A stretch of 64,000 nt of DNA from assembly GCF_016907055.1 (NCBI RefSeq), contig NZ_JAFBBG010000003.1, positions 1-64,000 on the forward strand. Reading direction: 5' to 3'. The DNA comes from Paracholeplasma morum. GTDB lineage: Bacteria; Bacillota_I; Bacilli_A; Acholeplasmatales; UBA5453. This document shows positions 57,969 through 61,279 of the stretch, in pieces (position 1 is the stretch's first letter; each line of letters opens with the position of its first letter). Below the pieces are notes generated by a model. The model was not told the DNA's origin and did not search any database. It was given only the letters and a program-made list of their open reading frames with translations. A program made the position numbers and the translations under genes.

Positions 57969-59486
57969 ATGACTCTATACTTATTTCTGATTGGATTCTT
58001 AGTCATTCTATCTCTTTTAGTTCAGCAAAGTGTTGCGAACGAAATCGCCGTTAAAAAGGGACATGAATCCTATAAAAACAGATTATTTGGTCTAATCCCA
58101 GTTTATGGAATTAGACGTGTATTGAAAATGAATAACTTAATTGGAACATCTCAAACTGCAATTGATTATTCATATGATCCAAGAATGTTATTAAAACGCA
58201 CCCTAATTTATGCGGGACTCTTAATCGGAGCAACCATCATTATTGCCCCATTATCAGTGTTAGGTTATCTATCTTTCAAGAATAACCTTCTACAATCCTT
58301 GATAACGATTTATGTTGTGTTGCTAATTGTGTTTAGTTATCACTCACTAGTAGTAGATATTGCGAAAGCTAAAGGCTATGAACATCTTTTAGTACACTTA
58401 ATTACACTCGTACCTTTCTATGGATTAATCTATACCTTAACGCGTCTTCCAAAAGGCCATTTAAGGGCTACCTTTATGAGGAAAGAACAACCAAACATTG
58501 TTCAGTATCTCATGCTTTCATTAATTATTGTATTGTTGATACTACCAACTAGTGGGTTAGTATTCTATCTATGGGTTGTTCCTAAGAAACGTAACGTTTC
58601 AAACTCAGCAATCTTAAGCAATTTCGGATTAGGAAACATCCTATCTAGATTATTAGTTTATGCTGAAATTACGCTTGTATCTGTCATTGTATTAGTGCCA
58701 GTTATCTATATTTTCGGGTTAGCATTCTCTAATATCTCATCTGCAGTTCCAAGTACAATTTGGCCTGAAAAACCAACGTTTGCCGCATTATTCTACCTAT
58801 TTGAAGAAACTAAGTTCTTAAAATGGTATGTAAATACATTATCAATCGCTCTTGTAAATATGTTTGTTGGTACAATCTTAATTACAGGTGCAGCTTATGT
58901 ATTTGCTAGATTCAGCTTTAAAGGTAAAAAAGCTGGGTTATTAACCATCTTAGTTCTACAAGCATTCCCTTCATTTATGGGATTAATTGCGATGTATGTA
59001 CTGTTCTGGACCTTTAACTTACTAGGTAAACCTTTAGCTCTATCGATTTTATATATCGGTGGTTCGATTCCAGGCAACCTATGGTTAATTAAAGGGTTCT
59101 TAACTCAAATTCCAAAAGACTTGGACGAATCCGCAATGATCGATGGTGCGAATAAACTTCAAATATTCTTTAAGATTATTCTGCCATTATCTGTACCAAT
59201 CTTAACATTCGTTGCCGTATCTATGTTTATGGGACCATGGATGGATTATATGTTACCGGGGTATCTTCTAAACTATTATCCTAAGAACGCTGGTCCAAAC
59301 TATGATGTTACACAACAGTGGACATTGGCAGTCGGATTATTTAAGTTTATTAATGACCCACAATATATGCACTATAGCGCATTCGCTATGGGGGCGTTAT
59401 TTGTCGGTATACCAATTACAGTCCTTTACATGGTATTCCAAAAATACCTTATCGAAGGAATTATGGCTGGTGCAACAAAAGGGTAA
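57969..59486 (+). CDS. malG: Maltodextrin ABC transporter permease MalG, with N-terminal extension
   Basis: A 505-residue permease. The C-terminal 290 residues are the normal MalG core with the EAA loop DESAMIDGANKLQ (about 386). About 210 N-terminal residues are extra and carry about four membrane segments. They contain an internal repeat: GLIPVYGIRRVLKMN (about 40) resembles TLVPFYGLIYTLTRLP (about 142). Start follows CAGGAGG. It ends in a terminator that includes the stop codon. Confidence 0.9.
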   Translation: MTLYLFLIGFLVILSLLVQQSVANEIAVKKGHESYKNRLFGLIPVYGIRRVLKMNNLIGTSQTAIDYSYDPRMLLKRTLIYAGLLIGATIIIAPLSVLGYLSFKNNLLQSLITIYVVLLIVFSYHSLVVDIAKAKGYEHLLVHLITLVPFYGLIYTLTRLPKGHLRATFMRKEQPNIVQYLMLSLIIVLLILPTSGLVFYLWVVPKKRNVSNSAILSNFGLGNILSRLLVYAEITLVSVIVLVPVIYIFGLAFSNISSAVPSTIWPEKPTFAALFYLFEETKFLKWYVNTLSIALVNMFVGTILITGAAYVFARFSFKGKKAGLLTILVLQAFPSFMGLIAMYVLFWTFNLLGKPLALSILYIGGSIPGNLWLIKGFLTQIPKDLDESAMIDGANKLQIFFKIILPLSVPILTFVAVSMFMGPWMDYMLPGYLLNYYPKNAGPNYDVTQQWTLAVGLFKFINDPQYMHYSAFAMGALFVGIPITVLYMVFQKYLIEGIMAGATKG

Positions 59487-59506
59487 GAAATTACCCTTTT
59501 TCTTTT
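59477..59506 (+). terminator. Terminator of the mal operon
   Basis: AAAAGGGTAA (includes the stop codon), loop GAAA, TTACCCTTTT, then T-rich. Confidence 0.9.
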
Positions 59507-59520
59507 CTTTAAATGTATCC

Positions 59521-59586
59521 GTTTAATGGTGGGTACATCGGTTCGGATAGGAAGCCCCCACTTCCATTAAGTGGTGGGTAGTTCAC
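59521..59586 (+). mobile_element. Orphan IS200/IS605-type right end (omegaRNA-3'-like)
   Basis: The sequence GGATAGGAAGCCCCCACTT closes a hairpin (CCC-CCACTT, 59555-59563, loop CCATT, AAGTGG-T-GGG, 59569-59578) and ends TAGTTCAC (59579-59586). That layout (AGGAAGCCCC hairpin then AGTTCAC) is the usual right end of IS605/IS1341 elements, which also forms the 3' scaffold of TnpB omegaRNA. The 9-mer TGGTGGGTA occurs twice (59527-59535, 59572-59580), so two alternative hairpins are possible. No tnpA or tnpB is present in the 155 bases between malG and glnS. Confidence 0.6.
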
Positions 59587-59597
59587 AAGATTATAAC

Positions 59598-59626
59598 TTG
59601 TTATAACGGGCCTTTTATTATATAAT
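59598..59626 (+). promoter_or_regulatory. Promoter of glnS
   Basis: TTGTTA (59598-59603), 17-base spacer, TATAAT (59621-59626). The -35 lies in TTATAAC-TTG-TTATAA-type inverted symmetry starting 5 bases after the IS605-like end. Confidence 0.75.
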
Positions 59627-59647
59627 TAGTAATTGGGAAGTGATAAT

Positions 59648-61279
59648 ATGGAGAACCATTCAAATTTTATTAAAACAATTATGATTCAAGATCTTGAATC
59701 TAAAAAACACGATGAAATCATTACAAGATTTCCACCAGAACCAAACGGATACTTACATATCGGACACGCTAGAGCTGTTATTAACAACTTTGAACTAGCT
59801 AAAAACTTCGGAGGTAAAACTAACCTTCGTTTTGACGATACCAATCCAGGAAAAGAAGACGTAGAATACGTTAATGCCATTATTGAAGATATCAAGTGGC
59901 TTGGATATGAACCTAATAAAGTTCTTTATGCTTCCGACTATTTTGAAGAAATGTATCATAGAGCAATCCTTTTAATCAAGAAAGGTTTAGCCTATGTGGA
60001 TGATTTATCTGCTGAAGAAATCAGTAAAACCAGAGGGAATTTAACTACTCCGGGCACAGAATCACCATTTAGAAACAGAAGCGTTAGTGAAAACATTGAG
60101 TTGTTTGAAAACATGAATAAAGGCATGTACAAAGAAGGCGAAAAAGTCTTAAGAGCCAAGATTGACATGGCTAGCCCTAACATGAATATGAGAGACCCTG
60201 TTATTTACCGTATAAGCTATGCTGAACACCACAATACAGGTAAGAGATGGTGCATTTATCCAATGTATGACTATGCTCATCCACTTGAAGATGCCATCGA
60301 AGGTATCACACACTCATTATGTAGTTTAGAGTTTGAAGACCACCGTCCGCTTTATGATTGGGTAGTTAGAGAAACTGAAATGCCTTTAATCCCTAGACAA
60401 ATTGAATTTGGTCGCTTAAATATCGAAAACACAGTGATGAGTAAACGTTATTTAAAACAACTTGTCGATGAGAAACATGTTATTGGTTGGGATGATCCAA
60501 GAATGCCTACCCTTTCAGGATTAAGAAGAAGAGGCTATACACCAGAAGCCATTCGTAACTTTATTCTTGGGACAGGGTTATCGAGAATTAACACAACCGT
60601 TAATACAGACATGCTTGAATCGTTCTTAAGAGACGATTTAGCTAACAACAGTTCTAAATTGATGGGTGTAATTGACCCACTTAAAGTGACTGTTATCAAC
60701 TATGATGAAGACAAAGTAGAAGCATTTACTGTGCCTTTTGATCCAAATAAACCAGAACTAGGTGAACGTACAGTATACTTCTCTAAACATCTTTATATTG
60801 AACAAGATGACTTCGTAGAAGTTAAACCAAATAAACACTGGAAGAGACTAGCTAAAGACGTTGAAGTGAGATTGTTCCACACCTATTTCATTAAGTGCGT
60901 AGATGTCATTAAAGATGAAACTGGTAAAGTAGTTGAACTTTTAGTTACTTACGATCCAGAAACTAAGTCAGGTTCAGGATTCAGTGAACGTAAACCTAAC
61001 GGAACCATTCATTTCGTTTCTGCTCATCAATCAATTAAGACACAATTTAACCTATTTGGACCGCTTGTATTTGACGGAGAAGCGCCTTTCATCGAACGTT
61101 TGAATAAAGACTCGTGGATTAAGAAAGAAGGCTTCATTGAGGCTGCATTCAGCAAGGACATACCTACTAAATCATTCCAATTGATTCGTATGGGTTATTT
61201 CAACTTTGATAAAGTCTCAACGAAAGAAAACATGGTATTAAACCGAATTGTTGAGCTAAAAAGTTCATTTCAAAAATAA
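59648..61279 (+). CDS. glnS: Glutaminyl-tRNA synthetase
   Basis: A 543-residue class I synthetase charging tRNA-Gln directly. It has [13 protein letters not shown] (HIGH motif), LRFDDTNP, and [11 protein letters not shown] (KMSK-like). The extended C-terminal anticodon-binding beta barrels are of the GlnRS type rather than GluRS. The start at 59648 follows GGGAAGTGA; the longer TTG start is less likely. Many Firmicutes lack GlnRS and use GatCAB, so its presence is notable. Confidence 0.95.

Follow-up and report, generated by a model that had tools for sequence, protein, structure and literature searches.

A solo IS200/IS605 right end upstream of glnS in Paracholeplasma morum and its recurrent left border

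The intergenic region between a malG-like permease gene and glnS in Paracholeplasma morum carries a 60-bp unit, TGGTGGGTACATCGGTTCGGATAGGAAGCCCCCACTTCCATTAAGTGGTGGGTAGTTCAC (59527-59586), that stands alone. The permease stop codon lies only 40 bp before it, and neither a transposon open reading frame nor a left end accompanies it. Coordinates refer to the window, by which we mean the whole 64,000-nt stretch of DNA that was analysed. The features of the locus are as follows.

59477-59500, plus strand: intrinsic terminator after the malG-like permease gene, upstream of the orphan end
59522-59526, plus strand: TTTAA, host sequence forming the left border of the orphan; target site of the family and, by analogy, its putative TAM
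59527-59586, plus strand: solo IS200/IS605 right end of 60 bp, present 8 times in the genome; in relatives it forms the 3' end of complete TnpA/TnpB elements
59527-59541, plus strand: small hairpin TGGTG-GGTA-CATCGG, covarying in complete elements; its outer C-G pair is lost in the orphan
59550-59580, plus strand: GGAAG followed by the subterminal hairpin CCCCCACTT...AAGTGGTGGG; fold computed, conserved in the aligned copies
59581-59586, plus strand: GTTCAC, the presumed right cleavage site, where homology stops in nearly all copies
59598-59626, plus strand: glnS promoter, TTGTTA (59598-59603), 17 nt, TATAAT (59621-59626)

The subterminal segment, whose hairpin proper spans approximately 59554-59580, presumably corresponds to the right-end hairpin recognized by TnpA. 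The flank begins at 59587, which is the guide position in complete elements; the glnS promoter, 11 nt downstream of the orphan, is intact, and the glnS ATG follows at 59648. No plus-strand promoter besides that of glnS was detected between 59400 and 59760, leaving the orphan with no upstream promoter of its own. A TTATAAC/GTTATAA symmetry in the flank (59591-59606), pointed out in the first-pass annotation, is at chance level: the window contains 10 inverted repeats of this kind (7 bp, spaced by 2 nt), this one included.

Sequence searches recovered 8 copies of the solo-unit region in the 1.56-Mb genome, the seven others with E-values from 3e-15 to 2e-22, and the 19-mer core gave 8 matches against 0 for a reversed control pattern, a recurrence far beyond chance. 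Of the six other genomes of the genus, five also carry the repeat. The orphan shows 2 differences from the commonest form of the 3' 60 nt, and is up to 97% identical to the 3' ends of complete TnpA+TnpB elements in relatives. This homology and the 8 copies bear out the first-pass annotation in recognizing an IS200/IS605 right end, orphaned between the mal terminator and glnS just as it described. A riboswitch or T-box was the competing identity it had named, and Rfam, searched at gathering and at relaxed thresholds, returned nothing relevant, any T-box or other family falling below the gathering threshold. The absence of TnpA and TnpB that it reported holds around the locus and fails genome-wide: a search for tnpB genes with matching right ends, as it had proposed, retrieved both matching ends and tnpB fragments elsewhere. 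C-terminal fragments of TnpB lie on contigs C7 and C8 and fragments of TnpA on C8 and C12, all at contig ends, as are five of the copies and, judged by position, all seven left ends. Since these right ends, the left ends and the gene fragments all sit at contig ends, the IS is present in the genome and has most likely been collapsed by the assembly; contig breaks within the IS also explain why PF01385 found no match in this genome. A weak PF07282 match at C4:90993 was rejected as TnpB, being below cut-off and showing no TnpB-like reading frame by eye. Two copies in the genome are solo 60-bp units, the one in the window and one at C4:125873-125937 (locus L021), which lies where an ABC-transporter ATPase gene is truncated at its 3' end; the copy at C3:94302 retains a short end of tnpB.

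The structure from which the orphan derives can be read in the complete genome G005, where all six copies form the 3' ends of full elements. These consist of TTTAA^CAAYCTAATCAAGAAGTCCCC as left end (^ marks a border), TnpA (PF01797), TnpB (PF01385, PF07282, PF12323) and a conserved 3' region ending in GTTCAC; left- and right-end hairpins are each preceded by GAAG. TTTAA precedes 28 of the 30 left ends inspected and is consequently regarded as the target of the family; by analogy with ISDra2 (PMC8612924) it would also serve as its TAM.

An alignment of twelve distinct complete 3' regions (A2; 100 columns, mean identity 96%) shows that the conserved scaffold of complete elements is about 98 nt long. 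The orphan is its last 60 nt, starting at column 40, and the end is thus not the full one that it was first taken to be. In the consensus fold, stem 1 (CCGTAG/CTACGG) and stem 2 (CCTATT/GATAGG) are followed by a terminal hairpin, and a small hairpin lies within stem 2. The small hairpin covaries on both sides at columns 43-50 (CG in 7 sequences, UA in 5), with GC/GU changes alongside. The 38 nt missing from the 5' side of the orphan comprise the GAA strand, stem 1 and the 5' strand of stem 2. The ISDra2 structure contains a pseudoknot, stacked on stem 1, between UUC (-5 to -3) and GAA (about -105 to -103) (PMC10097598). In the family described here, UUC lies at about -4 to -2 and a GAA immediately precedes stem 1 at a comparable distance, and by analogy these would correspond to the ISDra2 pseudoknot partners. 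The 9-mer TGGTGGGTA does occur twice in the orphan (59527-59535 and 59572-59580), as first noticed, but the two-fold switch suggested on that basis is not conserved: the 5' copy reads TGGCGGGTA or TGGTGAAGA in many other copies and belongs to the small covarying hairpin. A further 6-bp complement, TATCCG/CGGATA (59516-59521/59544-59549), spans the left junction, aided by a T-to-C change found in no other copy, and in part resembles the lost stem 2; it is present in the window copy alone and was rejected as a functional stem.

Three other rearranged loci were also observed. At G002:C8:8000-9293 (L039, minus strand), tnpA is directly fused to the final ~41 nt of the right end, giving an IS200-like derivative with neither tnpB nor the 5' part of the omegaRNA, and with a short new hairpin, CTATCCTAGTGATAG. 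At about 1610-1666 of L086 (G006:C77:8500-11500) there is a near-perfect fold-back of the 3' arm of the right end, GTGAACTACCCACCACTTCTAGTTAAGTGGTGGGTAGTTCAC, which may reflect an inverted duplication or be an artefact of assembly. In G038, which belongs to another family of the same order, an unrelated element of the IS605 type, its tnpB internally deleted, occupies approximately 2698-3210 of L147 (G038:C12:25500-31500, reverse complement); its right end directly adjoins glnS, and the flank begins CATATAATAAG, a possible glnS -10. This is probably a coincidental parallel insertion.

Comparison of the glnS upstream region between relatives revealed the empty site that the first-pass annotation had advised seeking. 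Gene order is the same in the congeners G001 and G006, but their mal-glnS gap shows no trace of the solo unit, and they possess an equivalent intact glnS promoter, TTGTTT-17-TATAAT. The orphaned state of the end and its empty site in relatives support the description of the sequence as a dead remnant or non-autonomous derivative.

The orphan is unusual in a single respect: solo right ends repeatedly share exactly the same border. This border, TTTAA^TGGTG, is identical at three loci in two species: the window, C4:125873-125937 in the same genome, and G006:C59:32737-32797. A fourth solo unit, on G003:C11, is too decayed for its border to be called. The G006:C59 unit has an empty counterpart in G001, where TTTAA is host sequence; at this locus a T follows TTTAA in the host as well, so that the initial T of the border could be assigned to either side. 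Among complete elements, the corresponding internal point almost always reads GTCAC^TGGYG, in which GTCAC resembles the terminal (G)TTCAC. TTTAA occurs in the window at a frequency of 0.0032 per base, so that three such borders would arise by chance with a probability of ~3e-8 if the events were independent. The G006 unit resembles a different subfamily (TGGTGAAGACTGG, as in G001 elements) from the two units of the P. morum genome, and at least two independent events are therefore likely.

We consider that 59527-59586 is probably a dead solo right end of a resident IS200/IS605 element (TnpA Y1 + TnpB), left behind by mis-excision of the TnpA type. According to this hypothesis, the TTTAA upstream of glnS was formerly followed by a complete element, of which everything from the left end to the internal GTCAC was lost; this GTCAC lies about 60 nt short of the genuine right cleavage site. 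TnpA would have cut correctly at the left border TTTAA^ while taking the internal GTCAC^ for the right site TTCAC^, and TTTAA would then have been sealed directly to the last 60 bp. The recurrent exact border and the different subfamilies suggest a site-specific reaction, of which an excision mistaking GTCAC for TTCAC is the simplest; judged from these sequences, cleavage at the internal GTCAC would be a side reaction of TnpA. However, the right flank of the G006:C59 unit differs from that of G001 by ~13-14 nt, which a clean excision does not predict, and no genome was found to carry the complete element at the glnS site, so that the intermediate is unseen. A broader formulation, which we regard as an open contender though somewhat short of probable, is that the last 60 bp constitute a discrete unit: TnpA would use the internal GTCAC^ as a second right-end site and repeatedly yield TTTAA^TGGTG solo ends, either as scars or as one-ended mobile units.

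The recurrence of the border also bears on two other origins. Were the 60-bp unit mobile in its own right, as a minimal element with one end on which the resident TnpA acts in trans in the manner proposed for REP sequences, then one hairpin and its guide GAAG would serve both the TTTAA target and TTCAC right cleavage; the base-exact recurrence of the borders, seen in two species and at several loci, would follow, GAAG does precede left- and right-end hairpins alike, and REPs are single-hairpin units cleaved by a relative of TnpA (PMC8266576). However, each genome has just one or two copies, which have individually diverged from the complete-element consensus, and the left-end hairpin normally needed for IS200/IS605 transposition is lacking. 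Moreover, a scan of ~85,000 genomes, in which the window's own genome was possibly not included, found the exact junction pattern in the G006 copy only, and we judge such mobility unlikely. Plain decay, that is, a random 5' deletion of an old insertion whose border came to lie after TTTAA by coincidence or microhomology, would fit the decayed copies with other borders (C3:94302 in the P. morum genome, G003:C33 and G003:C11). Yet the border is base-exact at three loci, a coincidence made unlikely by the occurrence of TTTAA at only 0.3% of positions, and the left end (TTTAA^CAA) and the internal site (GTCAC^TGG) share no common sequence; decay of this kind seems a rather unlikely origin.

It had further been proposed that the orphan is a retained guide RNA, used in trans by a TnpB or by a nuclease-dead TnpB-like repressor acting on the glnS promoter. 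In its favour, the scaffold is well preserved over its 3' 60 nt, the genome encodes a TnpB of the same family, and in G038 an independent, defective TnpB element likewise adjoins glnS. However, stem 1, the pseudoknot partner strand and one strand of stem 2 are absent, and the stretch from the terminator to the right end contains no promoter. Since TTCAC rather than TTTAA stands immediately before the flank, the glnS site would not itself be a target if the family behaves like ISDra2. In the genome's own assembly, TTTAA-adjacent matches to the guide did not exceed chance, the best others having 3 mismatches and being as numerous as in the control; a target may yet lie outside this genome. A search of the genome for a nuclease-dead TnpB yielded only the two C-terminal fragments, which begin at contig starts with their N-terminal halves in assembly gaps, and the one fragment read keeps the RuvC-type motif LDRDHNAA. 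We therefore regard a retained guide RNA as highly improbable. The remnant left by the proposed mis-excision would not be a working omegaRNA, and would at most alter the sequence context just 5' of the glnS -35 box.

These observations show that when an IS605 right end is encountered beside a promoter, the 5' half of the scaffold should be checked before the sequence is read as a guide RNA. Moreover, the recurrent base-exact border suggests a specific side reaction of TnpA, which would explain the origin of orphan omegaRNA-like ends. If the last 60 bp do behave as a discrete unit, they would represent a little-described route by which omegaRNA 3' ends become detached from TnpB.

Among known systems, the complete IS200/IS605 elements of G005 (TnpA Y1 + TnpB) are like the orphan in their last 60 bp (97% identical), right hairpin, TTCAC end and left TTTAA, whereas the orphan is devoid of left end, tnpA, tnpB and the first 38 nt of the 3' scaffold. 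With PATEs and other ends-only IS605 derivatives, exemplified by a 271-nt element of Halanaerobium (PMC7290912), it shares a short, gene-less and IS605-derived character. The published PATEs, however, have palindromic ends on both sides, whereas the orphan has the right one only, with no left-end hairpin upstream, and the PATE assignment first offered for it does not apply in that sense. The ISDra2 omegaRNA, or reRNA (PMC8612924, PMC10097598), likewise originates from the right end and has the same position of the 3' UUC and guide junction, but it contains a 116-nt scaffold with stem 1 and a pseudoknot reaching ~-105, against no more than 60 nt in the orphan. REP sequences and REPtrons (PMC8266576) resemble the orphan as single-hairpin relics with a tetranucleotide 5' of the stem and a related HuH transposase; in contrast to REPs, the orphan is present in few copies, no dedicated TnpA_REP was found for it, and its sequence is nearly identical to that of an IS right end.
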